IMG/VR virus record: IMGVR_UViG_3300037137_000724
Coordinates: 1 to 28,919 of that record
DNA length: 28,919 nt
Strand: one strand, 5' to 3'
DNA from: a virus
Positions 5,273 through 28,919 of this stretch are shown here, one piece after another. The notes beneath the pieces were generated by a model, which worked only from the letters and a program-made list of their open reading frames with translations, ran no database searches and was not told where the DNA came from. A program made the translations under genes and the position numbers. Position 1 is the first letter of the stretch; every line of letters begins with the position of its first letter.

Positions 5273-7123
5273 CTAGTTGTCCCTCCTTACGGTCAGCGAG
5301 AGCGTAACGCGGGTGATCGTCGCCGCGCTGTCCACGTTGAAGCGAATGATATCGCCCTTCGCCAGTGCAGTTGTCCAGCCGGTCAGCGTCGAGTCCTCGC
5401 TCTTGGTCGCCGAGGAGATCGTGGGCTTCGCGCTCGCGGTGATCGAGTCGCCCACGACCGGCGGATAGTTCGCGTACGTGTCCTTCCAGATGTCGATGAC
5501 GATAGAGCCGGACTGGTCAGCGAACAGCCGGTTCGAGATGATCGTGCAGGCGAAGGGCACCTCGAAGTCGGCTTTGACGCCCGTCGTAATCACCGCCCCG
5601 CCGCCGTCGATGATGAACTCGATGCCTGCCGTCTTTACGAGCAGCGGACGCTGACTCATCACAAAGCCGCTCGTCGTCGTGTCCGCGATGAACACCACCG
5701 CCGTCACCTGCCCCGCCGTGGTCGGCTCGGTCGTCGTGAGTAGACCGGCCGTACCCGCGCTCAGGAAGTAGACGCTGCCCGCCGTCAGCCCCGAGAGGCC
5801 GGTGGCGTAACCGTGACTCAAGACTCTGAAGGTGCTGCTATCTACCACCTGCGTCACGATCCCGACCTCACGAGCGTTCGCCAGCGAATCGGCCTGCGCC
5901 TTGATCCAGGTCGTACCCGAGAGCCGCACCACGTCCTTGACCGTGAAGCCATGCGCAGCCTGTATGACCGTGAGTGAGGAGGTCGCCGCACCGTCGCCCG
6001 CACGGGAGAAGTGCAGCACCACAGGGTCGTTATTCGCGAACGGGCTGGCCGTCGAGGAGTCGATGTAGGTGACGGTGACGTTCCGGTAGCCGGACTCTGA
6101 GCCGACCGCTGAGACTGCGAACAGAATCCAGGCCGAGGGATCATCACGCTTGACGATTTGCATGAGGCCCTTCACTGCATTCGTGCTCGCATCGAGAGCG
6201 TCGATGGCATCCGTCCAGTTGGTCGAGAATGAGTCGAGAAGGTCGAGTCGAACGACCGTGGTGAGGTTCTGATTGGCATCGTTGAAACGCATAAACCCGT
6301 TGCCGGGATCCGCGTCCGTCGTGGTCGTGGAGAACGTGTAGTGCGTCGCCATCGCACCCGAATGCACGCCGGTAGCTCCCGTGGCACCTCCGGGTGACCC
6401 TGCGGGTCCCGTTGCCCCAGTCGCCCCAGTCGCCCCGCCAGCTGATCCCGTGGCTCCTTGCGAGCCTGCTGCCCCCGTAGCCCCTGTCGTACCGGCTCCT
6501 GTCGCGCCGGTGTTGCCCTGGGTGCCAGTGGCTCCCGTATTTCCAGTCGCACCGGCTGGTGTACCGGTCGCACCCTGAGCACCCACCGTCCCAGTCGCGC
6601 CCTGCGGACCGACGCCGCCTTGCGCCCCGGTGGCTCCGGTTGTATTCGTCTGCTGGAAGATCCAAACCTGGCCTTCCAGCGCGTTTCCGACCGGGTAGAT
6701 CACGACGCGGCCGACGACGAACTCGTTGGTTCCGGGATCGAAGAGGTCGGTGAGGAAGCTGATCTCGTGTGCCGGGACGAAGTTCGGCTCAACGGTGATG
6801 GCCGAGGGCAGCGTGTACGCGAGCGCGTCCCAGGTGCCGGGTATCAGGAAGCCCTTGAACTCCAGCGAGCCGTCAGCGTGCCACCGGAACTCGTGCTTGC
6901 CGAGGTCCTCCTGGTCGGGATCGCCGTCGTCGGGCTGCGTCCAGCCGTTTTGTAGTTCGGGCTGCGGGCCGGGACCGACGTCGGCGGGATCGGCGTCAGG
7001 GTCGCCGTTGTTCTTCGGCCTGTTCCAGCGCCCGGCGAGTGGACGGCGCTGGAGGTCACTGCCGCGAAAGTTCGCCTGCACCAGGCGCGTGGTCGCGTTC
7101 TCCTCCCAGATCGGCCTGGTCAT
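5273..7123 (-). CDS. Tail fibre with collagen-like stalk (616 aa)
   Basis: Modules in order: N-terminal tail-attachment region (about 1-158, with [20 protein letters not shown]); a Thr-rich Gly-X-Y stalk (about 160-258, [19 protein letters not shown]); a beta region (about 260-385); a beta module at about 386-492 that recurs in the 1204-residue fibre ([14 protein letters not shown]); and a C-terminal sandwich from about 495 ([20 protein letters not shown]). The stalk has small register breaks such as GTPAGAT and GAGTT. Collagen triplets normally give trimeric coiled stalks; here the trimer would project beta domains from the tail tip. ATG 7123 overlaps the hub stop (ATGA), the usual place for a baseplate or tail fibre gene. 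The specificity is unknown. Confidence 0.8.
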
Positions 7124-8908: not shown

Positions 8909-11900
8909 CTACGTCGGTTGGTGATCCATAACGTGCTTGTTCCACTTCTCTGAGTGGCGGTTGGACGGATGCCCGGCTCCCTGACGGAGTAGATGGACCT
9001 CGCGAACGAGCAGCCTGACCTGGTGCACTAGTTCGTGTCCCTGGCCTGTCGTGATCCCGGTGCCGCCTGCCTGCCGTGCTCGCTCCGCCTGTGAGCGCAC
9101 GGGCGCGACACCTGGAACGGTGCTCGTTGGCGGTCGCCGAGGAGCAACCGAGGCCGTGGTGCTCGTCCCGCCGCCGACGGAGAGCGCGCCCTGCGGAAAG
9201 AAGTTGGGGCCGAAGTTCGCCAACACGCCCTGCTGCTCCTGAAGGAAGGCGAACGAGAGCGCCCCGAAGTCCTGCTGAGTCTTGTCGCGTTGCTTCTTGA
9301 GGTCACGGATCGCCTGCTGCTCTGCGGCGATCTCATTCCGCAGTCGCTTCCACTCGACCGTGCCCTTGCGGGTGAGGTCTTGCGCCCGCTTGAGGGCACG
9401 GATGAGCCGCTGGCGAGCACTCACCTCTTTGCTGATCGAGCCTCGCGAGCGGTCGTCTCCAGAGGTCGAGCCGATGGTCGCTAGTTCCACATCGAGCTGG
9501 AGCGACTCGATGCGTGTCTCTACCTGCTGCTGCTTCGACTCCTGCTGGAGCCGGGTGATCTCTCGACGTACGTCGGCCTTCGCCAGACGCAGCGCCTGTA
9601 GCTCGGCTGTCAGCCCCTTCGTCTCGTGCCCGGCCTGGCGCGCCTCGCGGATGCGCTTGCGCACCTCCTCGATGGAGCGGCGCAGGAAGTTGCGCAGCGC
9701 GGCGGATGCCTTGATGTCGTCTCCGAGTGCCTCCGTCGAAGCGGTCGCGGATACCCGCGCCTCACGTCGGGTCTGCTCCGCGTTGATGGCGCTCAGGAAC
9801 GCTTGATCACGCTCCTCGGCGGCCTGGAGGATGTCCTTCGCCTTGCTCTTAGCATCCGCCGCTGCCGCTTCCTCCTTCGTCTTCTGATCACCGAGGATCG
9901 TCTCGATCTGGCTGCGCGTCTGCTCAAGCTGATCACGCGCCCGCTCGACCGCAGCGTCGTGCTCCTTCGACGGCGGCTTCGCCACGAGTCTGTTGAAGAT
10001 GGAGAGCTGCTTAGCCTCCTGTTCTCGCAGCAGGCTTAACTCCTGGTCCTGGTTGCCAGTCACCTGCGCGATGGCGATCTTGGTAGAGATTGAGCGCGCG
10101 CCGACACCGGCTTCGGCTGCGCGCTTGTTGATGATGGTGATGAGATTCCCGAGTGCGCTGTCTACCGCGCTGTTCAGATGATCGAGGATCGACGGGATCT
10201 CCTCGTCAGCATGTCGGAAGTGCCCGATGAGCGCGTTGACGCCCCTCGCGATCCCGATTGTCGGGAAGGCTTGGATGAACGCGATCTTCCCGATCGTGCT
10301 CACGAGATGCTCGCCGCCGGGCACAGCCGATTCGAACTTGCGTCCGAGTCCAGCGGCTGCGCCGCCGATCGCGCCGAATCCGAAGAGCAAGTTGTCCGTC
10401 GCCCTCGCTAGTTCGTTCAGGTTGGTGAGCAGTAAGGTGGCTGGCCCCGTCGCCAACTCCCCGAGCTGACGTCCGGCATCCGCTGCGCTGTCCTTCGTCT
10501 CGTCGAACTGCCCGCCCAGACTCCGCGTCCGGGCTTCCGCCTCCCTCTCCGCCACACCGACCTCACGTGCTGCGGTCGCCATGCGCTCATATCCTGCGCG
10601 CTGCTGATCAACGATTCGGATGACCGCCAGCGCCGAGCGCCGCGAGAAGATCTGCGTGAGGATCGCTAGCTGCTGCTGGCGATCCACATTCTGGAGCGCG
10701 TCGGCAAGTCGCACGAACGCGTCCGGCCGCAGGTGTCCCATACTGTCGATGAGGTCCCCGACGCCGATGGCGCTTCCACCCGCACTCTGTCCGATCTGCG
10801 CGAGCCCCTTCGATACAGCGGGTGAGCCGCTGGCTAGGCGCAGGAACGACTGCCGGAGCAGTCCCGACGCCTGCCCGGCACTCAGGCCGGACTCCGAGAG
10901 CTGGAGGACGAGTGTGTTCGTCTCCTCCAGGCTGAGGCCTAGCGTGTCGGCCGCTGGCCCGATAGATGCCAGGGCGCTAGCGAACTCCTCGGCGTTGCCC
11001 TGCGTGAAGCGCAGACCGACCGCGACTGCGTCCGCTACTCGCTCAGAGTCAGCGGCGGTCAGATTGAAGGCATCGAGCAGGCGATCGATCTCACGAACGG
11101 AGGACTCAAGGTCGCCGCCAGCGGCTGCGGTGAGCAGTAGTGCGCCTCGGGCGGCAATCTGCGACTCCGTCAGGTCGAAGCCAGAGCGGGTGAGGAAGTT
11201 GATCGCCTTGGCCGCTTCGACCGCACTCGTCCGGGGGAGATCAAGATCATGGCCGAGCGCAACAGCCGTGCCACGTGCCTGCTTTAGCTGCTTCTCGGTC
11301 GCCCCAGTAGCGGACTCGATCAGATGCATCGCCTCGTCGAACTCAGAGGCCTGCTCGACAGATTTGAAGAAGGCCACTGCTGCTACGGTCGCGCCCAGGA
11401 ACGCCGGGCTAACACCGAGCGAGGCACCGCGTAGACCGGCCATCGTGGCCGTCTCGGCAGAGATGGCCTCCCCCGCCAGCAAGCTCGCCGAGCCGTGTTT
11501 GCGAGTCGCGAAGGCTGCGCGCTCTTCGGCCGTAGCCTTCGCGTTCAGCGATCCGGTGGCCGTCACCAGCGCATCGATCTCGGCGACCGTAGCCGCTGTC
11601 GTCTCGCCAGTGATCGCGAATAGCGCGCGCTGAGCGGCTGCATCGGCCTCAGCGGCAGCGGCCTTCTGGAGGTGCGACTTCGCCGCCCGCCCCTGTACGC
11701 CCTCCCCGGCGATCAGCGCGGCGTCGTAGCGCCCCTGCGCCTCCGCGAGCAGCGTGGTGGCACTTGCAGCCTCTGTCTCAGCGGCGGCGAGCGCCCCGAG
11801 TTGCTTCGTCGCGACGGTGGTCTGCGGAGACGCTGGAACGGCAAACTGGGTGCCCGCGAGCTGCCGCCGCAACTGCGCTTCCGTCGCGGCTCGGAAGCCC

Positions 11901-11953
11901 GCCGTCTCCGGCAGAACCTCAACGAACGCTACCGCTATTGGCTCGCCTGGCAT
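8909..11953 (-). CDS. Tail tape measure protein
   Basis: 1014 residues, the longest head-tail gene outside the fibres. ATG 11953 has AGGAC 10 nt upstream. Residues 1-180 are Ala-rich helices; a hydrophobic segment follows (AFLGATVAAVAFFKSVEQAS, about 182-201). Then comes the TP901-type tape-measure core: EFDEAMHLIESATGATEKQL, SAVEAAKAINFLTRSGFD and LSLEETNTLVLQLSESGLSA. A second apolar stretch (LLFGFGAIGGAAAGLG) is at about 520. Residues 640-900 are Lys/Glu/Arg-rich coiled coil. It fixes tail length and is ejected with the DNA. At about 1.5 angstrom per residue, a tail near 150 nm is expected, as a rough family rule. No muralytic domain was recognised. Confidence 0.93.
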   Translation of the reverse strand: MPGEPIAVAFVEVLPETAGFRAATEAQLRRQLAGTQFAVPASPQTTVATKQLGALAAAETEAASATTLLAEAQGRYDAALIAGEGVQGRAAKSHLQKAAAAEADAAAQRALFAITGETTAATVAEIDALVTATGSLNAKATAEERAAFATRKHGSASLLAGEAISAETATMAGLRGASLGVSPAFLGATVAAVAFFKSVEQASEFDEAMHLIESATGATEKQLKQARGTAVALGHDLDLPRTSAVEAAKAINFLTRSGFDLTESQIAARGALLLTAAAGGDLESSVREIDRLLDAFNLTAADSERVADAVAVGLRFTQGNAEEFASALASIGPAADTLGLSLEETNTLVLQLSESGLSAGQASGLLRQSFLRLASGSPAVSKGLAQIGQSAGGSAIGVGDLIDSMGHLRPDAFVRLADALQNVDRQQQLAILTQIFSRRSALAVIRIVDQQRAGYERMATAAREVGVAEREAEARTRSLGGQFDETKDSAADAGRQLGELATGPATLLLTNLNELARATDNLLFGFGAIGGAAAGLGRKFESAVPGGEHLVSTIGKIAFIQAFPTIGIARGVNALIGHFRHADEEIPSILDHLNSAVDSALGNLITIINKRAAEAGVGARSISTKIAIAQVTGNQDQELSLLREQEAKQLSIFNRLVAKPPSKEHDAAVERARDQLEQTRSQIETILGDQKTKEEAAAADAKSKAKDILQAAEERDQAFLSAINAEQTRREARVSATASTEALGDDIKASAALRNFLRRSIEEVRKRIREARQAGHETKGLTAELQALRLAKADVRREITRLQQESKQQQVETRIESLQLDVELATIGSTSGDDRSRGSISKEVSARQRLIRALKRAQDLTRKGTVEWKRLRNEIAAEQQAIRDLKKQRDKTQQDFGALSFAFLQEQQGVLANFGPNFFPQGALSVGGGTSTTASVAPRRPPTSTVPGVAPVRSQAERARQAGGTGITTGQGHELVHQVRLLVREVHLLRQGAGHPSNRHSEKWNKHVMDHQPT

Positions 11954-14448: not shown

Positions 14449-15594
14449 CTAGGTCCCCGTCGGCGGTCGGAACCTCACGGGATAGTCCAGGTCGGGCGAC
14501 CATACGCTCGACCGTCCTGCGCCAGCATCGGCGAAGATCCCGATGAAGGCGTCGATAGCCGTAATGCCCGTCTGCCCTGTCTTGATTGCCGCCGCGACTA
14601 GAGCCGCCGACTCCATCGCGATCCCCTCGCGCAGGACGCGTGTCACGTTGTCAGGGAGAGCACAGTCGCCACTTCCCGTCGGGCAGGCGCGCCAGATCTC
14701 GCACGCGAGCGCCATCGCCGCGGTGCGTCCAGCCTGCGGCGGATCGGCACCGTACGTGTAGGTGATCGCGAAGGTACCGTCCTCTGTCTCGGGCAGGTCG
14801 ATGATCTGACAGCCGGGCCACACCAGCCTGCGGTTCGGCTCGGTGATGTCGCGCTGGCGCACTAGCCGGTTCGGCTCCATGATCGCGTACTCATCCGGGT
14901 CGAGCGGTACGCCGTCGATCAGCACCTCGCTGATCTCGCGGATCGGTACGCCAGCGAGCACGACGTCGCTCGTAGGCGAGCAGCCGCAGACCTTGCCTCC
15001 ACAGGCCCAGCGCGTGCGCATCGAATCCCAGGAGTAACTCAGACCGTAGGCCCACGGCCCCCAGCACGAGCATCCCTGGTTGCAGGGGCGCACCGTGACC
15101 GGCCCGCACTCGCCGGGATAGAGACCGTTCGAGAGTTCGTACAGGATCTCGGTCGCCGCGCGGATCGCAGCGTCCTGTGCATCCGTCGTGTCGGCGGAGA
15201 AGCCCTCGCAGCACGAGGCGACGGCTGCGCGAGTAGTCCAGGCCGAGCACGGTGGGGTCGTGCCCGGCCCGAAGTCGGTGAGCGGCGGCAGCACCGAGAG
15301 GCCGAGGATCGAGGCAGCGACGAGTAGATCCTCCGAGGAAGAGGTATCCGCCTCGAAATCGCCGGTCTCCGACCAGACGATCGAGTACTGGCCCTCGGCT
15401 ACCGGAGCCACCAGAATCGCGGAGTAGATGCCGGTCGGGTTGCCGCCGACGATGATCTCGGAGATACCTAGCGCCGTAGGCCCGACTACGGTATTGCCCT
15501 CGTTGTCGTTGATGGCGACTTCGACCGTGCCGACGAGACCCGCCAGCCCGGAGTTGAATGTCGCCTCGAAAGTTGCACCCGGCTCCTGTTGCAC
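14449..15594 (-). CDS. Head-tail connector (adaptor) with N-terminal beta domain
   Basis: 381 residues; GTG 15594 has GAGGAGA 5 nt upstream. Residues 1 to about 95 are beta-rich and Ig-like (GTVEVAINDNEGNTVVG, PTGIYSAILVAPVAEGQYSI). From about 110 the typical adaptor follows: CSAWTTRAAVASCCEG, AAIRAATEILYELSNGLYPG, the Cys cluster GPVTVRPCNQGCSCWG, then GVPIREISEVLIDGVPLDPD and ITYTYGADPPQAGRTAAMAL. The helical start with AATEILYxLS and the VRPC motif match head-tail adaptor proteins of actinobacteriophages. It should form the ring below the portal. The N-terminal domain is an extra compared with plain adaptors, which are nearer 250 residues. Confidence 0.75.
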   Translation of the reverse strand: MQQEPGATFEATFNSGLAGLVGTVEVAINDNEGNTVVGPTALGISEIIVGGNPTGIYSAILVAPVAEGQYSIVWSETGDFEADTSSSEDLLVAASILGLSVLPPLTDFGPGTTPPCSAWTTRAAVASCCEGFSADTTDAQDAAIRAATEILYELSNGLYPGECGPVTVRPCNQGCSCWGPWAYGLSYSWDSMRTRWACGGKVCGCSPTSDVVLAGVPIREISEVLIDGVPLDPDEYAIMEPNRLVRQRDITEPNRRLVWPGCQIIDLPETEDGTFAITYTYGADPPQAGRTAAMALACEIWRACPTGSGDCALPDNVTRVLREGIAMESAALVAAAIKTGQTGITAIDAFIGIFADAGAGRSSVWSPDLDYPVRFRPPTGT

Positions 15595-16507: not shown

Positions 16508-16881
16508 GCGTAGCTGTACCCGCCCACCGTCAGAAGGACAATGTTCGCGCCCGACGTGTCCGACTTGTAGCCGAGCCATGAGGCCGCCGTCGCCGCGACG
16601 ACCCACCAGCCATTGAAGATGGCCGGGATGTTCGTCGTCAGAGCGAAGGCGTCGAACAGACGCGTCGCCGCCGCATCCGCACCGCCGGTAGAGACGGTGA
16701 AGTTGTGCGCCGCCGCGTTGGCCTGCGCGTGGATCGTGCGCAGCACGCCGGTAGTAGCCGCCGTGCTCGTCTGGTAGGCGGCTGTCGAGGTAATCGACGT
16801 CATCGCCGGGACCAGAGCTGCGGGCGTGTAGGCCGCATAGTGGAACTGCGGCCGACCCATGTGAACGCCAGGAATCCTCAC
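16504..16881 (-). CDS. Small structural protein (capsid or fibre accessory)
   Basis: 125 residues from GTG 16881 (GTGA overlap, AGGAGG ribosome-binding site). It opens with MRIPGVHMGRPQFHYAAYTP, then Thr/Ala-rich strands (VLRTIHAQANAAAHNFTVST), and ends with DAFALTTNIPAIFNGWWVV and TSGANIVLLTVGGYSYA. The pattern of small residues and NIPxIxNGWxVV is seen in short phage beta-sandwich proteins encoded beside fibres. It is flanked by a glycosyltransferase and a methyltransferase with overlapping junctions. A virion surface protein that the two enzymes modify is one possibility, inferred from position only. Confidence 0.5.
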   Translation of the reverse strand: MRIPGVHMGRPQFHYAAYTPAALVPAMTSITSTAAYQTSTAATTGVLRTIHAQANAAAHNFTVSTGGADAAATRLFDAFALTTNIPAIFNGWWVVAATAASWLGYKSDTSGANIVLLTVGGYSYA

Positions 16882-17573
16882 TGACGGACCTCCTCTGGGG
16901 CGATTCGGTTGCCATCTCGGCCGTCAACCTCGATGAGGTTCACGTCTTCGCCGACCATATTACGTACTTCGGCGGTCGGATAGATCACGACTGTCTTGTG
17001 GTGCCCGGGCTTCGACTCCGGTACCAACCACGGGATGTAGCCCGCCTCACGGGCACGCCAGGAGAACGAGACATCCTCGCCCGCCCCAGGGTAGAGCGCC
17101 GAGTACGGGTTCTCGCCGACGGCCTCGTAGACCTCGCGATGGACGAGCGTGAAGCCCGCGCCCGCTACTCCTACCTGCGTAGGACGATCAGGGATCAGCA
17201 CGAGCGGGTGATAGACCTGCTCTATCTCCGAGTCCCACGGCCCGGCGGTCATCACGCCCTCCTCGGTGACGTAGGGGGCGGTATAGATCCCAGGGCCATG
17301 CTTATCGGCCACCTCGTACAGCGCCCACACGTCGCGCGGCTCGAACACCATGTCGTTGTCCACCATCATCAGCCACTCGCGCCCGGCTTCCTGAAACTCA
17401 GCTACGACGCGATCGCGGTTGGCGTGGATGTACGGGCCGTGGACGAGCAGATAGTCGGCCAGGAAGCGATGAGCGAAGTCGTCCTTGAATAGGTTGACGA
17501 CCGAGTGCATGAACCAGAAGGAGACGGTGGCTCCGGTGATGAAGCCCAGGTGGGAGTCGCCTTCGTTTGGCAC
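16878..17573 (-). CDS. Glycosyltransferase, GT-A fold (GT2-like)
   Basis: 231 residues from GTG 17573. The GT-A metal/nucleotide site is visible as WLMMVDNDMVF (about residues 67-77), followed by a helix, then TAPYVTEEGVMTAGPWDSE. The acceptor-side motifs are GVAGAGFTLVHREVYEAVG and GEDVSFSWRAREAGYIPWLV, the ED pair being the usual catalytic base region, and GHHKTVV near the C-terminus. It should transfer a sugar from a nucleotide donor in the host cytoplasm. It lies between a collagen-stalk fibre and a small structural gene, so virion glycosylation is a plausible role. The gene has no ribosome-binding site but has TAGGCT 7 nt upstream. Confidence 0.82.
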   Translation of the reverse strand: MPNEGDSHLGFITGATVSFWFMHSVVNLFKDDFAHRFLADYLLVHGPYIHANRDRVVAEFQEAGREWLMMVDNDMVFEPRDVWALYEVADKHGPGIYTAPYVTEEGVMTAGPWDSEIEQVYHPLVLIPDRPTQVGVAGAGFTLVHREVYEAVGENPYSALYPGAGEDVSFSWRAREAGYIPWLVPESKPGHHKTVVIYPTAEVRNMVGEDVNLIEVDGRDGNRIAPEEVRQ

Positions 17574-17603: not shown

Positions 17604-18623
17604 TTAGCCCAGGTACTCCGTGATGTAGACGATGCCCGCCGCGCCTGCGGCTCCGAGCCGGTCGGTCACGCTCACGGCGTGTGCCCCCGCCGCGCCGCCG
17701 CCGTAGAGCTTTCCTGCCACGCCCGCCGTGTCGTTTCCAGTGCCGAAGGTAAGGGGTCCCCATCCCATCGCAGACGGACCCCCGTCCCCACCCTCGCCGA
17801 CGGTGCCCGACTCCACTAGACCGGCGGCACCCGCGCCGCCTGTCAGGTTCACGTCCCCGCTACTGCCGACCCCGCCCGCGCCACCCGCGTTCGAGACACC
17901 CGTGCCCGAGGTCGTCCCGCCGCCGCCCGTGGCGGAGATGAGAGCGCCCACCGAGGTGGTGCCGCCAGCCGCGCCGGGAGAGCCTGCCGCACCGCCCGCG
18001 CCGACCGTGACAACCTGCGAGACTCCGACCTGCGCGGCCGTCACCAACCGCATACTCGCGCCGCCGCCGCCACCGCCGCCGCTGGCCGAGTCGGTGGCCA
18101 AGCAGTCGCCGGTTCCACCGCCTCCCCCGACGACCACGATGTATGCCCGTTTCATCCGAGCCGTGGGCGTGTAGGTGCCGCTACCTGTGAACACCTGCGT
18201 CACGACGTCGAGGACACCGGGTTGCCCGTCGAGTCCGTCCAGACCCTGGGGGCCGGTAGCTCCGGTACTTCCAGCGCCCGTTGCTCCGGTAGCTCCGGTT
18301 GCGCCGAGCGAGCCATCCATTCCGTCCAGACCCTGCGGGCCGGTAGCGCCGTTCGCGCCCGTCGCGCCCGCGCCGGTAGCTCCAGGTGAACCAGTGCTAC
18401 CGGTGGCGCCTACACCTCCGAGAACGCCGTCGATCCCATCCAAGCCCTGCGGCCCAGAGGCTCCCGTCGCGCCGTTGATACCGGACGTTCCTGTTGCGCC
18501 GGTGGTTCCTCGCTCGCCGGGCATCCCGTCCATGCCGAACTGCCCGTCGGCACCCACAGCACCACTGGCCCCTGTTGCGCCCTGAGGGCCGACTCGCTGG
18601 CTGAAGGCTGAAGGTGATGTCAT
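17604..18623 (-). CDS. Fibre with collagen-like stalk and glycine-rich tip
   Basis: 339 residues. Residues about 12-138 are Gly-X-Y triplets, with [20 protein letters not shown] and [10 protein letters not shown] nodes and register breaks such as GAGATG. The tip (about 139-339) starts [20 protein letters not shown], then [47 protein letters not shown] and ends [16 protein letters not shown]. Such glycine-rich tips of stacked polyglycine helices are receptor-binding domains in tail-fibre adhesins (T-even gp38 is a precedent for the general design). ATG 18623 has AGAGGGA 13 nt upstream and TACGAT 6 nt upstream. This is the best receptor-binding protein candidate in the window. Confidence 0.82.
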
Positions 18624-19448: not shown

Positions 19449-22400
19449 TTACAACCTCGTGTACGTGATCATGACGCCGAGCAGACGGGCAGTCGCCGCC
19501 AGCGTGTCGGAGCCAGAGGTCGGATCTCGCGAGACGCGGAACTGTACTAGCTCGGACGCTCCGGCCCCGGCGATCGTGATAGCAGCGGTAGCAGGAGAGA
19601 TCGCCAACTGATTCGCAGTGCCGTTCAGAGCGTCCTGCACGGTTTGCTCTGCTCCCCAGGCAGCGTCGATGGTCTCGAAGTTGCCGTAGGAGATGCCCTG
19701 GCATCCCCAGAGGACGGGGTTGGTAGAGGCGCTGTTGGCCGTCCAGTAGAAGACAGCCGTGACCGTGCCTCCGTTCCAGTCGGAGGGCATCGCGATCGTG
19801 GCCTGCGCCAGCAGCTTCGTCGCGCCGTCGGCGAAGTCGAGCACGTAGAGATCCTGATCGTTGGTACCGAAGTCAACCTTGGCGTTAGCAGCCGCACCGT
19901 TCGTCGTCGAGGGCCACATGCCCGCCGCGGAGAGGAATATCTGCCCGGCGGGCTTGCTCCCAGGTGAGCCGTCGAGGCCGGGAGTACCTTCCGGCCCGGT
20001 TGCTCCCGTCGTGCCCGCTCCGGTCGGCCCCGTCGTTCCCTGGCTGCCTGTATTACCGGTCGCACCTTGCGTTCCCGTAGGCCCAGTTGTGCCCGTGAAG
20101 CCCTTATCACCTTCCAAGCCATCTAGCCCTTGCGGGCCGGTTGCCCCGGTAGCGCTGGTTGCGCCTGTCGGCCCGGTCGTTCCCTGCGCACCGGTGGCAC
20201 CCGTAAAGCCCTTGTCGCCCTCAAGACCATCCAATCCTTGTGGGCCAGTCACACCTTGCGCTCCAGTTGGTCCAGTGGTGCCCTGAGCGCCCGTGGCCCC
20301 GGTGGTGCCTTGCACTCCCGTCGCACCCGTCACTCCCTGCGCACCGTCAAGACCGTCTAAGCCCGAGGGGCCTGTCGTGCCCTGAGCGCCGGTCGGTCCT
20401 GTAGTTCCTTGCGAGCCCGTTGCGCCGGTCGTTCCCTGCGCGCCGGTGGCCCCTGTGAAGCCCTTGTCCCCCTCTAAACCATCAAGGCCCTGCGGTCCAG
20501 TCGTTCCCTGAGATCCCGTCGGCCCCGTTGTTCCTTGGGTGCCAGTTGGGCCGGTTGTGCCCTGGACTCCGGTGGCTCCGCTGACCCCTTGCGTGCCATC
20601 GAGTCCGTCGAGTCCTGCGGAACCGGTTGTACCAGTAGCGCCCTGCGTACCCGTCGGCCCGGTCGTCCCTTGCGTACCAGTTGCCCCGGTGAATCCCTTA
20701 TCGCCCTCTAGGCCATCCAAACCCTGAGGCCCGGTTGCTCCCGTTGTTCCCTGAGTACCCGTCGGTCCAGTCGTTCCTTGGGTGCCAGTTGGACCCGTGG
20801 TTCCTTGTGCTCCCGTAGCGCCGGTGCTGCCCACCGCGCCGTCGATGCCGTCGATGCCAGCAGGTCCAGTCGCACCAGTAGTTCCCTGGGCGCCCGTCGG
20901 CCCAGTAGTGCCCTGAGCGCCGGTGTTGCCCGTAGCGCCCGCCGTTCCTGTGGCTCCGGTGACGCCCAGACCTCCGTCAATCCCATCCAAACCCTGTGGG
21001 CCGGTAGCGCCGGTGCTGCCAGCTGTACCTGTCGGGCCGGTCGTTCCGGTCGTGCCCTGAGCGCCGGTCGCACCCGTGGTTCCCGGTGTTCCGTCGATAC
21101 CGTCGTTCCCTGCGGGGCCGGTGGTGCCCGTGCTCCCCTGCGCGCCCGTGGGTCCGGTTGTCCCTTGTGCTCCTGTCGCGCCTGTCGTTCCCTGCGGGCC
21201 AGTGTTTCCGGTTGTCCCGGCGGCTCCATCAAGGCCGTCCAGGCCCGCCGGGCCTGTCGCGCCGGTTGGCCCAGTCGTTCCTTGTGTACCCGTCGGCCCT
21301 GTCGTGCCCTGGGTTCCTGTGGCTCCCGTCGTTCCCTGCGGCCCAGTCGCTCCGCTGACACCGACCTGTCCGTCCAGACCGTCTAAGCCCTGCGGCCCGG
21401 TATGTCCGGTGGTGCCCTGCGTTCCTGTCGGACCGGTCGTGCCTTGCGAACCCGTCGGCCCGGTCGTGCCTTGCGAACCCGTTGCACCGGTGCTGCCGGT
21501 TGCGCCTGGACTTCCATCCAGGCCGTCCAGACCCACGCCGGTCGGCCCGGTGACACCCGTATTGCCGGTCGTACCTTGTGCTCCAGTCGGCCCTGTCGTT
21601 CCTGCGCCAGTCGCACCCGTGGAACCTGGCCCGCCATCTAGCCCGTCTAGTCCAGCCGGTCCAGTGACTCCCGTAGTCCCAGTCGATCCCTGGGAGCCGG
21701 TCGCGCCCGTCGATCCCTGGGAGCCGGTCGCGCCCGTGCTTCCAAGACCTGTGGCACCTGTAGAGCCTGGCGCGCCGTCCAGCCCATCGAGGCCAACCGG
21801 ACCCGTCGCGCCCGTCGATCCGGGCTGGCCCTCCGAGAGCAGCTCACCACGGAAGTTGAAGAGGTATCCGGAGGTCGCCGCGTTGGCGATGATGATGGGC
21901 TTCGAGACCTCTCCGAAGGTCGGCTCGGTGCTCGTCAGCGCACCGGCGACGCTCGGACTCAGGAAGTAGACCGTTCCGGCTGTGAGACCTGCGAGACCGG
22001 TGATGTAGCCGATGAACTGGATCGTGAAGTTGTTGGCGTCTGCGACCGCCGAGACCACTCCGACTACTTCGGCATTAGCCGCGGTATTCGCTTGAGCCTT
22101 GACATAGGTCGCGCCGCTCAGACGAACGACATCACCGACTGCGAAGCCGTGTCCTACCTGGTTGATGTCTCGGGTCGCACTCCCGCCCGGGCCGGTAGCT
22201 CCGGTGGCTCCCGCGCCGTCCAGCCCGTCTAACCCTTGCGGCCCGGTCGGCCCCGTCGTGCCGGTATTGCCAGTCGTGCCTTGAGTACCTGTCGGCCCTG
22301 TGGTTCCCTGTGCCCCGGTCGGTCCCGTTGTTCCCTGGACACCTGTAGCGCCCGTGATGCCGATCGGACCCGTCGAGCCTGGGCCTCCATCAAGGCCGTC

Positions 22401-23063
22401 GAGGCCCTGTGGGCCGGTCGCGCCTGTTAATCCCTGCAAGCCAGTCGCGCCCGGTGATCCGTCGAGTCCATCTACACCTGCGACTCCGGTAGCTCCGGTC
22501 GGGCCGGTGGTGCCAGCGCCCGTCGCACCCGTAGTGCCGGTGCCCGTAGCGCCGGTGGTGCCCTGCGATCCGGTTGCCCCGGTTGTGCCGACGCCGGTGG
22601 CTCCGGTTGCCCCGGTCGCGCCTTGTGGCCCAGTCGGACCCGTGGTTCCCTGCTGCCCCGTCGGCCCGGGTGAGCCGTCCAGTCCGTCCAGTCCCGCGGG
22701 ACCGGCTGAACCAGTCGCGCCGCTCGGCCCTTGCGGCCCCGTAGCGCCAGTGAAACCCGATCCGGTAGCGCCGGTGGCCCCAGCGCTTCCTGTAGCCCCA
22801 GAGACGCCCTGAGCGCCCGATGCACCCGTAGCGCCCTCGGTACCCGTAGCGCCGGTAGTGCCGACCGACCCCGTCGCCCCGGCGGAGCCGGTCGGACCCG
22901 TTGCGCCATCGGGTGAATCGACGTACTCGTGCATGAAGCTGCCGGGGAAGCCCGGCTCGCCCAGCACTGACGGGCGCGTCTTGAGGAACTTGTCCGCCGC
23001 GATGGCGGCGTCGTCTACATCGAACAGCCGCCGCAGGAACCGGATGACCTTGACGGCTGGCAT
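19449..23063 (-). CDS. Giant collagen-like fibre protein (1204 aa)
   Basis: 1204 residues in five parts: an N-terminal anchor (1-51, [20 protein letters not shown]), collagen block I (about 52-293), a beta module (about 296-408) shared with the 616-residue fibre, collagen block II (about 411-1033), and a C-terminal beta domain (about 1034-1204, with [20 protein letters not shown] and [11 protein letters not shown]). Triplets are dominated by GPT, GTT, GAT and GTQ with Thr in Y; acidic GLDGLDG or [10 protein letters not shown] nodes recur every 36-48 residues. Assuming 0.29 nm per residue, 860 triplet residues give a stalk near 250 nm, longer than a typical siphovirus capsid is wide. The start ATG 23063 lacks a ribosome-binding site and follows a strong hairpin. 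It could be a capsid or a tail fibre; the nearest upstream genes are head and tail tube. Confidence 0.85.
19964..22910 (-). repeat. Collagen-type 9-bp periodic DNA repeats
   Basis: The coding strand repeats GGN-NNN-ACN units for about 2.6 kb, broken by the beta module at roughly 21840-22175. Higher-order units of 108-144 bp start at each GLDGLDG node. The reverse strand reads as open proline/valine-rich frames, which are by-products. Such DNA is prone to recombination and copy-number change. Confidence 0.85.
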
Positions 23064-23084: not shown

Positions 23085-23116
23085 GACACCGCCCCGGGGA
23101 TCTCCGGGGCAGTGTC
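23085..23116. terminator. Strong intergenic hairpin between tail-tube and fibre genes
   Basis: GACAC-C-GCCCCGG, loop GGATCT, CCGGGGC-A-GTGTC: 12 base pairs with one C/A mismatch and a 6-nt loop, centred in the 86-nt gap between 23150 and 23063. There is no T-run on either side, so it may be a weak terminator, an RNA-processing or stabilising element for the upstream mRNA, or an attenuator limiting fibre expression. Confidence 0.5.
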
Positions 23117-23149: not shown

Positions 23150-23800
23150 CTAGCTCCCGATGGCACCTGTCCCGAGCACGCCACAAGCCGTGGCGGTGGG
23201 CAGGTCATCGTTGGTGAACCAGCGCGCCCACTCGACTACGTCCTGGCCGTCCGGCGGGCCGTCGCCGTAGGGGCCGCCGCCCCAGAGCGGGTTCGACGCC
23301 GAGACACCGTTCAGCACGGTGCGGCCCACGCCCTCCTCCTGGGTGTTGTCGCCCCACCACCAGCGCGTCCGCGGGAACACCCAGTGGACGAGCTTATAGG
23401 TGGCGTCCGGCGAGTTGCCGACGTAGTGCTTGGCCCAGAACTCGAACCCGACGAAGATCGGATCTTCGTCGCAGTCAAGCGGCGACTGACCGTTGACGCC
23501 GATCGCGAGACCGCCTGCGGTAATCGGCGTATCACCGGTCATCATGGCCTCGATCGCAGGCTCGATCACGTCCTTGCCGAATGTGAAGTCGAACCAGTTG
23601 AAGATCGGTCGCCCTTTGATGTTGACGGTCGCACAACCGCACCCGTCCCGAGCGGTGATGTCGGTGCCCTGGTCGATGTTCGGGTTGAACCCCACCGTCA
23701 CCGGCTTGCGGCTCACGGCGAAGTCGTCGTCCGCGTTTCCGTCGCTGTCGAGGCGCGTCACGCGGATCGCGCAGAGACCATAAGGTGCTCCACAGTTCAT
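23150..23800 (-). CDS. Probable major tail (tube) protein
   Basis: 216 residues; ATG 23800 has a strong ribosome-binding site (GAGAGGAGG), as expected for a highly made protein. The N-terminal pattern, CAIRVTRLDSDGNADDD then VSRKPVTVGFNPNIDQGTDI and ARDGCGCATVN, followed by FNWFDFTFGKDVIEPAIEAM, MTGDTPI, and the CDEDPIFVGFEFW stretch, matches siphovirus tail-tube proteins of actinobacteriophages as I recall them. A late GGGPYGDGPPDGQDVV also fits. The eight cysteines include the motif GCGC. It lies after the capsid genes rather than directly before the chaperones. A head decoration protein is the alternative. Confidence 0.62.
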   Translation of the reverse strand: MNCGAPYGLCAIRVTRLDSDGNADDDFAVSRKPVTVGFNPNIDQGTDITARDGCGCATVNIKGRPIFNWFDFTFGKDVIEPAIEAMMTGDTPITAGGLAIGVNGQSPLDCDEDPIFVGFEFWAKHYVGNSPDATYKLVHWVFPRTRWWWGDNTQEEGVGRTVLNGVSASNPLWGGGPYGDGPPDGQDVVEWARWFTNDDLPTATACGVLGTGAIGS

Positions 23801-23825: not shown

Positions 23826-24680
23826 TCACGGAGTTGCGCTCCTATCGACTCGAACGCCCGCGAGCAGCGCCGTGTCCCAGTAAGCGATGTAGTTCCGCTC
23901 AGCGCGGAACGTCACGTCGTTCGTGTTCGTGTCGATCACTTGAGCCGTCGGCCCAAGGACTTCCACCTCGTCGCGAGTGAGCCGGACTGGCCCCGTCGCC
24001 CAGGCGTAACCCTCATCGGCGGTCAGTGCTGTACCCGGCTGTTGCCCGGATGCCGGGAGGTAGCCATCGCCGATGATGACCGTCGTGCCGCGAGCGGTGT
24101 ACGCCCGCGTCCCGTCGGTCTCGATCAGGTTCCAGGCGGCCATCGCGATGAAGGTGCCGGAGTCCACGTGGATCATGCCGTCGTGCGCCGTGGCGCCGAT
24201 TGCATTCTCCAGTAGGGCTACGGCCTCGCGAGGCCCGATCGCCGCGTTGATCCCGGCCGGGTATGTCGCCAGGCCGGGCTTCGTGAAGTGCGGACGATCG
24301 GAGTCCGTCACCCCGAAGGCCAACTCGCGCTCCACCTGGTAACCCTCCGTTGCAACGAACGCTTGCCTGACGCGACTGCGCGCCCGCTCAGCCCCCGCCT
24401 CGTTGCCCAGACCGATGCCCGAGCAAGAGAAGGGATAGACCACGGTGAACGAGCTGAACTCGGGCTGCGGTGGCTCGCCGCCCACTGCCTTGACCCGCAT
24501 CGTCCCGACGGCGCACGGGTTGTGCGACTCGGGAAGATCGTCGGGATAGGAGTCGATCAGAACTCCTGCCCGCCAGTGACCGTCTCCCTCGGGCACGATC
24601 GTGCCCGGAGTGGTCACCAGCCCGTAGGGCCGGGGAGTCGGAGGAGGGCCGTCGATCCGCAGTGGTGCAAGTGCGCTCAC
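23826..24680 (-). CDS. Conserved capsid-associated virion protein
   Basis: 284 residues from GTG 24680 with a strong ribosome-binding site (GGAGGAGG). It lies between the major capsid and the probable tail-tube genes. The C-terminal half contains DGMIHVDSGTFIAMAAWNLI, ARGTTVIIGDGYLPASGQ, YAWATGPVRLTRDEVEVLG and AERNYIAYWDTALLAGVRVD. This order (probe-like helix, GxxVxxGxGY, WATGPV, TND, AER...WD) is a recurring pattern in phage head proteins next to capsid genes. A minor capsid, portal-vertex or decoration role is possible; no enzymatic site is visible. Confidence 0.5.
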   Translation of the reverse strand: MSALAPLRIDGPPPTPRPYGLVTTPGTIVPEGDGHWRAGVLIDSYPDDLPESHNPCAVGTMRVKAVGGEPPQPEFSSFTVVYPFSCSGIGLGNEAGAERARSRVRQAFVATEGYQVERELAFGVTDSDRPHFTKPGLATYPAGINAAIGPREAVALLENAIGATAHDGMIHVDSGTFIAMAAWNLIETDGTRAYTARGTTVIIGDGYLPASGQQPGTALTADEGYAWATGPVRLTRDEVEVLGPTAQVIDTNTNDVTFRAERNYIAYWDTALLAGVRVDRSATP

Positions 24681-24725: not shown

Positions 24726-26480
24726 TCAGCAGGCTCGGGCAGTGCCCGTCCCTGCCGTCACGCCCGTCGGGCAGAGCGTGAACTGGCCGTAGAAGGCCTC
24801 AGCTGCGACCACGGCCGCGTTCTCGAAGGTCTCGGAGAAGAACTTGACGTCGTTCGTCTCGTTGAGAATCGAGTCGCGGACGAGGCCGATGTTCAGCTCG
24901 CCCTGGTCGATGAACAGGATGCCGCCCTCCGGCCAGAGGAGAACCTCTGCGATGTCCGGGAAGTCGACGATGTCACCATCGGTCTGTGCTCCGATGATCT
25001 GCGCGCCGCCCGTGCGGCTGTCGAGGTAGAAGTCCACGGAGACCTGCGTGCGCCGCTGAATCTCTGCCGCGACTCCAGCTCGGTTGTCCACACCGTTCGG
25101 GAACTGCCGCGCATTCTGATCCGCCACGATGAGGTCAGCGAGCCAGGCCGGTGCGAGCGACCGCAGATTCGCGTCCGCCGAGAGGCGGTGCCGCGACCGG
25201 TAGCCCGCCGCGAGACGCAGCAGGTTGTAGACAAGGCCGTCGAACGCCGAGTACGCCTGCGCCGTCTCCGTCGGAACGATCGTTTGCGGGTCGGCGAAGA
25301 CCGCATCGAGAAGGAGCGAGTCTCGCGTGCGAGCTGCCTGGACGCCCAGGAGATCCTGGTACGCCGCGATCAGCTCCGGGAAGGCGATGCTCGCCAGGTT
25401 CCCGGCCTGAAGGCAGGCCGCGATGATGTCTGCCCGCACCTCGGAGTCCGACGGACACTGGACTACGACGCAGTCCTTGGTGAACGTGCCACCTTCGTCC
25501 TGTGCCTCGGTCAGGTGCGTGATCCCGTCCGTCACGTCCGTGGACGCGATGGAGATGTCCGGGTAGTAGCGCAGGCCGCCGCGCGTGGCGTTGAAGCCAG
25601 CGAAAGCGTCCCGCACCGGGCGCTCGGTGACGCCCATGGCGCCGACGTCGTAGCGGATGGTCGAAGGTGCGCACCAGCCGCCGGAGGCCGTGAGAGCCTG
25701 CGGGCCGCGCACCGCGCGGATCTTCTCGTCGTCCGCCTGGATGGAATCACCGTAGAGCTTGCGCTCCTCCGGGTAATCCCACTGGGCGGACGCCACGACG
25801 ACCTTCTGCACGAAGCCAGGAGGTGTCGAGACCATGCCGCGCAGCGAGGTCATCAACGCATGGGCCAGACCTTCACGGTCAAGCTTCTCGCCCTGCGGGA
25901 TGCCCTCGATACCCGCCGAAGCGACGAGGGACACGCCCTCCTCGATCTCGATGGGCTGATGCTTGCGAGGAACTGCGGGCGGCCGATGCCGGAAGGGCTG
26001 GGCCGGAGCAGCAGCAGCGACGACGGCATCAGGTTCAACCGCTAGCTCGGAAGCGCCCTCATGCGAAACCTCGCTTGCAACTTCAGCCGCCGCTTCTGCG
26101 TTCTCTGGCTCGGATGGCTCCGCAGGCTCGGGGTCTGGTTCGCTCGGCTCCGGCTCGGACGGTTCGTCCTCACGCGGCTCCGCAACGGCTTCGGCGACGA
26201 CGCCTGCGTCGGCTGCGATCTCGGCCATGTCGGCCGCGAATCGCTCGCGCTCCTCGGTGCGCTCGCTGAGCGCGACCTTGAGCGCCTTCAGCGTCTCCGC
26301 TCCGGCCTGCGCGAGCGTCTTGCGCTCGTTCAGGTCGGGTGGGTTCTCTACACCTTCAAACGCGGCCCCGGAGGCGATGGCCCCGAAGGCGGCGTTGTAC
26401 TGGTCGATGAGCGAGGAGATGTCCTCGTCGGACATCCCCGCGATCTGCTCTAGATCGACCACGGGAAACAGCGGTTCCAT
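24726..26480 (-). CDS. Major capsid protein (HK97 fold) with N-terminal scaffold-like region
   Basis: 584 residues; ATG 26480 has GGAAGGA 7 nt upstream. Residues 1-100 are helical and acidic (AGMSDEDISSLIDQYNAAFG, LSERTEERERFAADMAEIAA). Residues 101-128 are a Glu/Pro/Ser repeat (EPSEPEPSEPDPEPAEPSEP), 129-160 Ala-rich, and 161-174 basic (FRHRPPAVPRKHQP). The capsid domain follows: LTASGGWCAPSTIRYDV at about 268-284, GGLRYYPDISIASTDVTDGI, EGGTFTKDCVVVQCPSDSEV, and a late GGAQIIGAQTDG and VLLWPEGGILFIDQGELNIG. WCAPS and the -INRGELDLG-like end are typical of actinobacteriophage capsids. The first 190 or so residues probably act as a delta/scaffold domain removed by the protease encoded upstream; no separate scaffold gene is present. 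Confidence 0.9.
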   Translation of the reverse strand: MEPLFPVVDLEQIAGMSDEDISSLIDQYNAAFGAIASGAAFEGVENPPDLNERKTLAQAGAETLKALKVALSERTEERERFAADMAEIAADAGVVAEAVAEPREDEPSEPEPSEPDPEPAEPSEPENAEAAAEVASEVSHEGASELAVEPDAVVAAAAPAQPFRHRPPAVPRKHQPIEIEEGVSLVASAGIEGIPQGEKLDREGLAHALMTSLRGMVSTPPGFVQKVVVASAQWDYPEERKLYGDSIQADDEKIRAVRGPQALTASGGWCAPSTIRYDVGAMGVTERPVRDAFAGFNATRGGLRYYPDISIASTDVTDGITHLTEAQDEGGTFTKDCVVVQCPSDSEVRADIIAACLQAGNLASIAFPELIAAYQDLLGVQAARTRDSLLLDAVFADPQTIVPTETAQAYSAFDGLVYNLLRLAAGYRSRHRLSADANLRSLAPAWLADLIVADQNARQFPNGVDNRAGVAAEIQRRTQVSVDFYLDSRTGGAQIIGAQTDGDIVDFPDIAEVLLWPEGGILFIDQGELNIGLVRDSILNETNDVKFFSETFENAAVVAAEAFYGQFTLCPTGVTAGTGTARAC

Positions 26481-26616: not shown

Positions 26617-26687
26617 TAGCGCGGCCGCGATTCGAACGCGAGATTCCGGCGTATGAGACCGGCGTGATGCCATTTCACTACCGCGCG
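26617..26687 (-). tRNA. tRNA-Met (CAU anticodon)
   Basis: 71 nt on the minus strand that folds as a cloverleaf. Acceptor CGCGCGG pairs with CCGCGCT (six of seven pairs; C1 and U72 mismatch), followed by A73. U8-A9; D stem GTGA/TCAC with GG in the loop; anticodon stem CCGGT/GCCGG with loop CTCATAC (U33, CAU, A37); 4-nt variable loop; T stem TCGCG/CGCGG with loop TTCGAAT. CCA is not encoded. A C1 mismatch recalls bacterial initiators (C1-A72), but the anticodon stem lacks three G-C pairs and position 11-24 is U-A, so it is an elongator or a CAU tRNA-Ile2. It starts 11 nt after the glycosyltransferase stop. Confidence 0.85.
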
Positions 26688-26698
26688 GGCGTCGAACC

Positions 26699-27364
26699 CT
26701 AATCGGCGGTGAAGACGGCTGCTCGCCGCGCCGGGTTGCGCCCTTGGTAGCTGCGCTGCTTGACCAGACTCGGCATGAGGTCGGGATGCTCGACGAGACA
26801 CGGAACCGTGGCCCAGACGGCCAGCTTGTGCTGACGAACGAAGCGCCCCACCACCGGATCGTCCCCCAGCGTGCTCATGCGCCTGCGCGCGCGCTCGGCC
26901 ACGTGCTCCTCAGCAAACGGTACGAAGGCTTCAGCCAGCTTGCGCGGCCAGGCGAGCGCGACGGTCGGCACCCAGTTCGCACTGGGCGGAAGTTGCACCC
27001 AGCGGTCTCCGCGCTTGGCTGCCTCCCGTACCCAGCGTCCGTGCAGTCCCATGCCTGGAACGAAGAACGCGACGAGCGTGTCCGGGCGCTCGCGCAGCGC
27101 GTGGTGTGCCCGAGAGTCGAAGTCGCGGACTAGCTTGACGTCGTCCTGGAGCACGAGCCGGTGGCTGACGCCTGGCGGCGTGCGTCGCAGGCACTCGATA
27201 TAGGTGCGGATCGCTGACGGCTTGCCGTTCGGGTCCGGGTCTGTGACGACCTCATAACGCGCCAGCTCTGGCGGTAATACCCGCGAGGGGTGGTGCTGGA
27301 TGACAGTGGAGAGGAGCAAGCCGGGCGGCGGGGGAGAGAGGGCCTTGTGAGCCGTCAGGGTCAC
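26699..27364 (-). CDS. Small glycosyltransferase, GT-A-like (GT25-type pattern)
   Basis: 221 residues from GTG 27364 with no clear ribosome-binding site. The sequence carries STVIQHHPSRVLPPELARYE, then DPNGKPSAIRTYIECLRRTP, and HRLVLQDDVKLVRDF at about residues 69-83, where QDD is the metal/nucleotide-binding DxD-type site after an apolar strand. The C-terminal STLGDDPVVGRFVRQHKLAV and WATVPCLVEHPDLMPSLV complete a pattern seen in short phage glycosyltransferases of the GT25/LPS-type group. Sandwiched between the protease and capsid genes, it may glycosylate the capsid or another virion protein; a host surface target is the alternative. Confidence 0.7.
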   Translation of the reverse strand: MTLTAHKALSPPPPGLLLSTVIQHHPSRVLPPELARYEVVTDPDPNGKPSAIRTYIECLRRTPPGVSHRLVLQDDVKLVRDFDSRAHHALRERPDTLVAFFVPGMGLHGRWVREAAKRGDRWVQLPPSANWVPTVALAWPRKLAEAFVPFAEEHVAERARRRMSTLGDDPVVGRFVRQHKLAVWATVPCLVEHPDLMPSLVKQRSYQGRNPARRAAVFTAD

Positions 27365-27387: not shown

Positions 27388-28919
27388 TCAGTCGTCGTAG
27401 AACACAAGCTCGACGAGCATGTTTACGTCATCCTCGCGCTTCAGCGCATACTCGGCTCGCAACGCCTCAGCCATGTCCTCTTCGTCCGGCGGCCCAAGGA
27501 TCAGCGTCGCGATCTCCAGCGACTCGGCTGATGCACTCAGCGCGAGCTGCGAGCGCGTAACCGGGAACCCAGCCACGTTGACGGCGAGCGCCGCCTGAAG
27601 CTCCAGTCCGCCTTCGTATGCACGCCAGTCGCCCGAGGGCGGGCAGGCACGGAAATCGCGGATCTGCTCCGGCGTGGCGTCTGACTTGAGCACGCCGCAG
27701 ACCCATATCCCGAACACGCCGTCGTGCGCGCGACCGAAGGCGACGCAGGTGCCGGTGTGGTCGTAGTGCTTGCGAGCGGCAGCGGCGCCCAGGTGCAAAG
27801 GCGCGTGTCCGGTCCCGATCGTGATGCGCCCGACCGACACCTCGGCACCGTCGTCGCAGAGCATCGCGCCCAGGTGGAACTGCGAGTAGTTCGTACGCGA
27901 GTGCGGCGCGTACATACACGCCGAGTAGGCCCCGTTCGCGCGCCCCGCGTGGCAGGTATTCCAGAGCGCGAGGTGCCCGTAGAACTCACCCGTCGGCAGG
28001 ATCTTGAGCGGCGTCGGCTCGTCGGCCTCGTCGCGGTAGAACCACTCGCGCGGAGGCATGAGCGGAGGTTGCGTCTCTACTGCGCTTGCGACCACTGCGT
28101 TTGCCCAGTCGAGATCGTCACGATGAATCTCGACCGCTCGGATCGCGAAGCCCGAGGCCACCAGCGCCCGATCCTCCACGATGCGGATCGTCGTCTCCTC
28201 GAAGGCGGCGATTGAGGCGAGGCTTGCCCCGCCAATCTTGCCCGCGATGCCGCGCAGGTAGCCGTCAGGAACCATGCCGAGCATGATGCCCAGTAGATCC
28301 TCCTCAGTCATCCCGCTCGGATCAACCTCCTCGTACGTCTTCGCGTCGATGAGCGCCTGCCGATCCATCGGCAGATCGAGACTGACGCCGACGCCGTTCT
28401 CCATCTGACGGATCGCCTCGTCTGCGTCAGGTGAGCCGTCGAAGGTGCCCTCACCCCAGATCACGACCGCCTGCTCGGGCAGATCCGCAGGAAGCAGCCA
28501 GTCCAGTTTGTCGAACTCGGCGAGCGGGATGTGTTCGATGACTTCGATGCGTCCGACCGTCCGCGTCTCGTGCTGGTTCTCGTGGGAAGCGGCGAGCGGA
28601 AGTGGCAAGTCACGCTGGCCGATCTCGCCCGGGATCAGATAGCGACCGTCGCTGGTCGGCGATCCGGCGATGGCGAGCACGCCCTCCCAGGGAGTGCGCT
28701 GCGCTGCGCCCGTGGCTGCGCCGTCCTCGACGGTGATGGTGACGGCTGCGGTGACTCCGTTGTTGTCCATGGCGGCAGGGTAGGCGTTCGGGAGGACGGC
28801 ACTGGCGACCATCTCGTCCGCGGCAGCTGGCTCATCGCCCGAGCCGCCCGAGTATACGAGTGTGCAGCGGCAGTTGATTACCTCCTCGTCAGGAAGATCA
28901 GGGTCGCCCGGATACATCG
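27388..28919 (-). CDS. MuF-like C-terminus fused to capsid maturation protease (5' cut by window)
   Basis: At least 509 residues are visible; the ATG at 28917 is at the window edge and is probably internal. The first residues, YPGDPDLPDEEVINCRCTLV, are the ending of a MuF/SPP1-gp7-type domain, so a portal-MuF or MuF-protease fusion is likely. Residues about 65-240 form a capsid-protease-like domain: PTSDGRYLIPGEIGQRDLPL, PLAASHENQHETRTVGRIEV, VGVSLDLP. Residues about 330-490 carry a recurrent actinobacteriophage C-terminal domain: FYGHLALWNTCHAGRANGAY, HYDHTGTCVAFGRAHDGVFG, SGDWRAYEGGLELQAALAVN and AGFPVTR. It would cleave the capsid delta domain during maturation. Catalytic residues are not assigned here. 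Confidence 0.85.
   Translation of the reverse strand, partial: MYPGDPDLPDEEVINCRCTLVYSGGSGDEPAAADEMVASAVLPNAYPAAMDNNGVTAAVTITVEDGAATGAAQRTPWEGVLAIAGSPTSDGRYLIPGEIGQRDLPLPLAASHENQHETRTVGRIEVIEHIPLAEFDKLDWLLPADLPEQAVVIWGEGTFDGSPDADEAIRQMENGVGVSLDLPMDRQALIDAKTYEEVDPSGMTEEDLLGIMLGMVPDGYLRGIAGKIGGASLASIAAFEETTIRIVEDRALVASGFAIRAVEIHRDDLDWANAVVASAVETQPPLMPPREWFYRDEADEPTPLKILPTGEFYGHLALWNTCHAGRANGAYSACMYAPHSRTNYSQFHLGAMLCDDGAEVSVGRITIGTGHAPLHLGAAAARKHYDHTGTCVAFGRAHDGVFGIWVCGVLKSDATPEQIRDFRACPPSGDWRAYEGGLELQAALAVNVAGFPVTRSQLALSASAESLEIATLILGPPDEEDMAEALRAEYALKREDDVNMLVELVFYDD

Follow-up and report, generated by a model that had tools for sequence, protein, structure and literature searches.

Genomic context and architecture of the fibre gene

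The DNA analysed here, referred to as the window, is the 28,919-base virus record IMGVR_UViG_3300037137_000724 at its full length. Its minus strand holds a siphovirus structural cluster in which a collagen-like fibre gene follows the major tail protein gene. The fibre carries 18 short acidic motifs of the form G-[LVNI]-D-G-[LI]-[DE]-G, which we term nodes. The annotated genes of the cluster are given below from high to low coordinates.

27388-28917, minus strand: portal
26699-27364, minus strand: glucosyltransferase-like gene, located between portal and major capsid and also retained by most relatives in the group
26618-26686, minus strand: tRNA-Met (CAT) between the major capsid and glucosyltransferase-like genes, sharing about 80% identity with tRNA-Met of Stenotrophomonas phages
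24726-26480, minus strand: major capsid
23826-24680, minus strand: conserved gene without assigned product
23150-23800, minus strand: major tail protein, upstream neighbour of the fibre (phrog_792, E 2e-13)
19449-23063, minus strand: collagen-like fibre gene, 1204 residues, ATG start (open reading frame list; Pfam Collagen PF01391, E 1e-111)
17604-18623, minus strand: second collagen protein, 339 residues, with three fibre-type nodes ([21 protein letters not shown]) at residues 60, 98 and 127 and a glycine-rich C-terminal domain
16878-17573, minus strand: glycosyltransferase-like gene, candidate fibre modifier (weak Pfam GT2 match below the cut-off; PHROG 34859)
14449-15594, minus strand: head-tail adaptor
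8909-11953, minus strand: tape measure, 1014 residues

The nearest capsid proteins among named phages belong to actinophages, at no more than 36% identity; the source virus is an uncultivated actinophage-like siphovirus. A DNA search of named phages returned only the tRNA match and no close relative of the fibre. The nodes of the second collagen protein indicate that the motif is used in two genes of one phage. A 267-residue protein is encoded between the two collagen genes. The glycosyltransferase-like gene is two genes away from the fibre in the window, such a gene also occurs beside the fibre in loci L020 and L021, and a methyltransferase-like gene is found near it in the cluster.

Between the tail protein and fibre genes lies a GC-rich hairpin without a T run (GCCCCGG-AGATC-CCGGGGC, 23091-23110, minus strand), which might reduce read-through into the fibre gene. 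A minor tail protein encoded downstream of the tape measure (5273-7123, minus strand) combines a node-less collagen stretch with a relative of the fibre middle domain, so that modules evidently pass from one tail gene to another. A tandem repeat with a 54-bp unit, present in about 2.8 copies, occupies 4073-4246.

Comparison of the fibre with the PF01391 model yielded a score of 365 bits against a curated cut-off of 27.2, and glycine occupies every third residue in 279 triplets. The Gly-X-Y total is 837 residues, which at a rise of 0.286 nm per residue gives about 239 nm. Threonine fills the Y position in 142 of the 279 triplets (51%), and prolines are few. The rod consists of more than one block, being split by a non-collagen domain of about 125 residues (approximately residues 287-411) and by several Gly-X-Gly slips. 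Its parts are as follows, all on the minus strand.

22902-23063, minus strand: N-terminal peptide, residues 1-54 ([14 protein letters not shown]...HEYVD), presumed virion anchor, kept in relatives
22206-22907, minus strand: collagen block I, residues 53-286, with four irregular nodes (node positions)
21831-22205, minus strand: middle non-collagen domain, residues 287-411 (homologues in L017, L023 and L032)
19953-21830, minus strand: collagen block II, residues 412-1037, with a regular node lattice (node positions, spacing test)
20109-21794, minus strand: 14 block II nodes, from residue 424 (first) to residue 979 (last) (motif positions)
21682-21737, minus strand: perfect local duplication of 27 bp, the only clear-cut recent copy (repeat search)
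19449-19952, minus strand: C-terminal domain, residues 1038-1204, predicted jelly-roll beta-sandwich resembling carbohydrate-binding modules (AlphaFold2 pLDDT 94; 23 viral loci)

Matches of the fibre to PHROG tail-fibre families are confined to the collagen stretches and are driven by collagen composition; for the end domains, matches came solely from uncultivated phages and EBPR siphovirus 2. The fibre is best read as a known kind of object, a collagen-like phage fibre, with a recurrent node detail. A sequence-only reading of this gene had suggested that the rod, if a single trimer, would be exceptional in length, which does not hold for the group, as relatives carry 1047 to 1233 Gly-X-Y residues.

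The node lattice

The four nodes of block I begin at residues 124, 196, 220 and 277, and their spacings of 72, 24 and 57 are irregular. Those of block II begin at residues 424, 471, 511, 559, 607, 652, 691, 736, 781, 817, 859, 901, 943 and 979. The resulting spacings (47, 40, 48, 48, 45, 39, 45, 45, 36, 42, 42, 42 and 36) reproduce exactly the thirteen counted in the sequence-only reading. The four DLEGDK variants ([10 protein letters not shown]) reported there near the C-terminus begin at residues 781, 859, 943 and 979. The coefficient of variation of the block II spacing is 0.09; equal numbers of nodes placed uniformly at random average 0.54, and none of 10,000 random sets was as regular (p<0.0001). 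Node positions and spacing statistics both establish that the proposed super-repeat is real. Tandem duplication would also yield regular spacing and was therefore tested separately, as described below.

The same spacing bears on the possibility that nodes serve as register locks. In this view they would interrupt an otherwise nearly uniform series of Gly-Thr-Thr/Ala/Pro triplets and so bring the three folding chains into a single register. Slipping block II by any amount leaves at most 4 of 15 nodes coincident, compared with the 14 that a perfectly even lattice would keep. However, the observed order of spacings prevents slip no better than shuffled order does (mean 3.3), and fairly even spacing is worse for this purpose than random spacing would be. 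An arrangement of the spacing order against slip was accordingly rejected. Most nodes are moreover entirely acidic, which permits no mutual pairing, although Glu-type nodes are followed by Lys or Arg in five lineages, as in inter-chain pairs. On this evidence we regard register locking as unlikely.

Charge in the fibre is concentrated at the nodes. The triplets between them had been described as nearly uncharged, and indeed 44 of the 51 charged residues fall within 13 residues of a node start. Adjacent charged triplets number 21, compared with 6.5 +/- 2.1 when triplets are shuffled, and lone acidic triplets between nodes are nearly absent. The collagen region holds 45 acidic and 5 basic residues, the acids clustering two per chain per node. 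Such clusters could form rings of up to six Asp per node that bind calcium or magnesium and thereby stiffen or bundle the rods. No known calcium motif was matched, however, and several lineages have basic residues mixed into the node; we consider cation binding very unlikely.

Recurrence among related phages

Relatives were collected with three probes, namely the C-terminal domain, the N-terminal peptide and a degenerate pattern for the node, which returned 23, 4 and 14 loci, respectively, in overlapping and partly duplicate sets; four of the 14 node-pattern loci (L050, L053, L056 and L058) proved to be non-collagen frames and were discarded. Fourteen lineages carry such a fibre downstream of the major tail protein gene (the window, L010/L020, L011, L017, L019, L021, L022, L027, L032, L036, L039, L040, L046 and L051). 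The distance between the two genes is less than 100 bases in some of these and about 0.9 kb, or occupied by additional genes, in others. No such gene occupies the corresponding gap in Actinomycetia phage DSL-LC01, Arthrobacter phage Atuin or Actinoplanes phage phiAsp2.

The N-terminal peptide is conserved from the same methionine in L010, L011, L032, L036, L040, L046 and others, and the parts behind it vary. The L040 fibre has the N-terminus and nodes of the window fibre and a different C-terminus, L010 and L011 contain different inserted domains, and in L017 and L032 the fibre modules are distributed over two genes. The ends and the middle of the fibre are thus exchanged among relatives. Searches of named phages with the middle domain and with two N-terminal peptides gave no match; the node peptide likewise found none there, which proves little given that a low-complexity filter blunts this search. 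The one genome match to the C-terminal domain, a contig of an Anaerolineae metagenome-assembled genome, is too little to name a host.

The node motif is found again, with other spacers and at other pitches, in L020, L021, L032, L039, L046 and L051; spacer dialect and pitch are specific to each lineage. Median pitch is 42 residues in L032, 43 in the window, 45 in L040, 57 in L021 and L051, 60-66 in L020, 79 in L046, about 89 in L036 and L039, and 102-135 in L017, L019 and L055. Random node spacing in relatives would have spoken against the lattice; most of those that have enough nodes for the test space them regularly. The regularity reaches significance in the window, L020, L021, L032, L039, L046 and L051; it is not significant in L036 and L055, which have few nodes, and in L040 it varies with the counting of the first nodes (p 0.006 vs 0.085).

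The L046 fibre (IMGVR_UViG_3300005836_000011, 41086-45207) is built of GATGVSGATG units that are nearly identical and carries a node every 72-84 residues, and its codons are scrambled to chance despite this near-identity (0.257 vs 0.258). The node-less fibre of L024/L025, which shares the C-terminal family, is made up of GVQGQT repeats, and its DNA contains exact repeats of up to 95 bases, the opposite of the scrambled codons seen in most node-bearing fibres.

Duplication versus selection

The variant nodes had been taken as a sign of recent unit duplication. When block II was shifted against itself, the same codon occurred at matching residues with a frequency of 0.286, compared with 0.293 expected from the gene's own codon usage, and on this comparison recent tandem duplication of the units is rejected. 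Codon sharing among the DLEGDK nodes is likewise near chance, with the exception of the pair at 859 and 943 (0.50 vs 0.36), and the GLDGLDG nodes use all six leucine, all four glycine and both aspartate codons. Shift-averaged codon sharing was at chance level in all ten fibres tested. Repeated 18-mers in the window fibre number 48 against 8.5 under a codon-shuffled null, pointing to recent copying only in short stretches.

The lattice might nonetheless be a by-product of an old unit duplication and have no function. Repeated 18-mers exceed the codon-shuffled null in L021, L039 and L024 as well as in the window, the perfect 27-bp duplication lies within block II, and the separate spacer dialect and pitch of each lineage fit such an origin. 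Against it, codons are saturated between units while the Asp and Glu residues stay in place, GPQGLDGL(D/E)G recurs in distant phages with different spacers, and acidic triplets are almost missing outside the nodes; a lattice without function is therefore quite improbable. Scrambled synonymous sites indicate that the units are either old or synonymously rewritten and that the acids were retained meanwhile. Because distant relatives also retain the motif at their own spacing, the marks look selected rather than accidental, and the lattice is apparently both recurrent and selected.

Acid at the Y position

Aspartate at Y is an unfavourable choice in a triple helix. The node consensus, GPQ-GLD-GL(D/E)-G, places its acids at precisely this position, and in the window fibre 38 acidic residues stand at Y compared with 4 at X. 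Acid at Y is also found in the other strongly noded relatives, whereas the node-less members of the same C-terminal family (L024 and L026) have acid at X. On an additive host-guest stability scale, which was measured on short proline-rich peptides, the acidic triplets score 26.9 against 33.2 for the remainder. Asp and Glu are reported to prefer X in the collagens of E. coli phages and humans (PMC3368898); the preference for acid at Y is new here and reverses that published preference.

The unfavourable position and the lower score of the acidic triplets weakly favour joints or charge-dependent sites over stabilising ones. We therefore prefer joints that also carry charge and assign register locks and ion sites a smaller, though real, probability. 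An observation that runs against weak joints is that Glu-type nodes with a subsequent Lys or Arg could stabilise rather than weaken the helix. Such a residue follows 26 of 27 Glu-type nodes in five lineages and none of 18 in four others, which makes it a lineage trait; because the nodes of a given protein do not count as independent cases, the pooled p-value of this trait is not to be taken at face value.

End domains and proposed function

The AlphaFold2 model of the C-terminal domain has a pLDDT of 94, and the solved structures nearest to it in fold are CBM36, CBM35 and CBM6 modules (Z 12.4 to 11). The best structural match, the CBM36 domain 7ay3 (Z 12.4), superimposes with an rmsd of 2.7 over 123 residues, and identity to the best matches is 7-13%. 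A Foldseek search of viral models returned close matches that include an uncultured Caudovirales protein, together with more remote ones to collagen proteins of Catovirus and Klosneuvirus. The model suggests a glycan-binding or trimer-capping knob. A sequence search of the PDB gave nothing convincing for the C-terminal or middle domain; the latter has homologues at 57-65% in L017, L023 and L032, and its structure model (pLDDT 52) is too poor for a fold comparison.

The N-terminal peptide is short and basic, and its conservation makes a virion anchor the natural reading. It may dock on the tail tube, neck or head. The adjoining major tail protein gene suggests a tail location, while the collagen-like trimer gp12 of SPP1 can sit on the head (PMC7602432).

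From these observations we tentatively propose, with somewhat less than even confidence, that the gene encodes a virion fibre of an actinophage-like siphovirus in which the nodes are selected, charged and weak joints. The N-terminal peptide would dock the fibre on the particle, and a probably trimeric Gly-X-Thr rod of up to about 240 nm would extend outward to a C-terminal beta-sandwich at the tip, probably a glycan-binding or trimer-capping knob. The neutral, hydroxyl-rich rod would lend itself to hydration, or to O-glycosylation by glycosyltransferases that the phage encodes. GPQ-GLD-GL(D/E) nodes, spaced fairly evenly in steps of about 12 nm, place acids at Y, and these charged, locally weak segments may provide both joints and hydration for the long rod. 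It is possible, although we consider it less likely than not, that phages tune node pitch, which ranges from about 40 to 120 residues (12 to 34 nm), to set bending, register or ion response of the rod. No description of such a node lattice, or of a rule of pitch tuning, was found for any collagen in the literature searched.

The relatives constitute a natural series of collagen rods that bear one charged motif at differing, fairly even pitches in otherwise neutral sequence. The role of charge clusters in the triple helix, whether as joint, register mark or ion site, is therefore directly testable with recombinant rods. The motif may also offer a spacing element to collagen engineers working without hydroxyproline.

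Comparison with known systems

Collagen-like tail fibres of tailed phages (PF01391; PHROGs 6320, 5073, 819 and 1806) share with the window fibre the Gly-X-Y rod, the virion-structural gene cluster and the non-collagen ends. The window fibre differs from them in its regular acid-at-Y lattice and in the position of its gene directly after the major tail protein gene. EPclA and EPclB of E. coli prophages are likewise phage-borne collagens with non-collagen ends, but they contain many charges, with Asp and Glu at X, Lys and Arg at Y and much proline at X (PMC3368898), whereas the window fibre has few, with the acids at Y and in nodes.

By analogy, the fibre also resembles the BclA-type Gly-X-Thr collagens of Gram-positive bacteria (PMC8968730) in having threonine at about half of the Y positions, a jelly-roll-like C-terminal domain and, possibly, glycosylation. 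Helix stability in these proteins is attributed to hydration and, for BclA, which is glycosylated, also to its glycans (PMC8968730). BclA is, however, a spore surface protein, and a node lattice is not described for it (PMC8968730). SPP1 gp12 provides a further parallel as a collagen-like trimer on a siphovirus particle (PMC7602432). It is a small spike on capsid hexamers, whereas the window fibre is a long multidomain protein whose gene stands beside that of the major tail protein.
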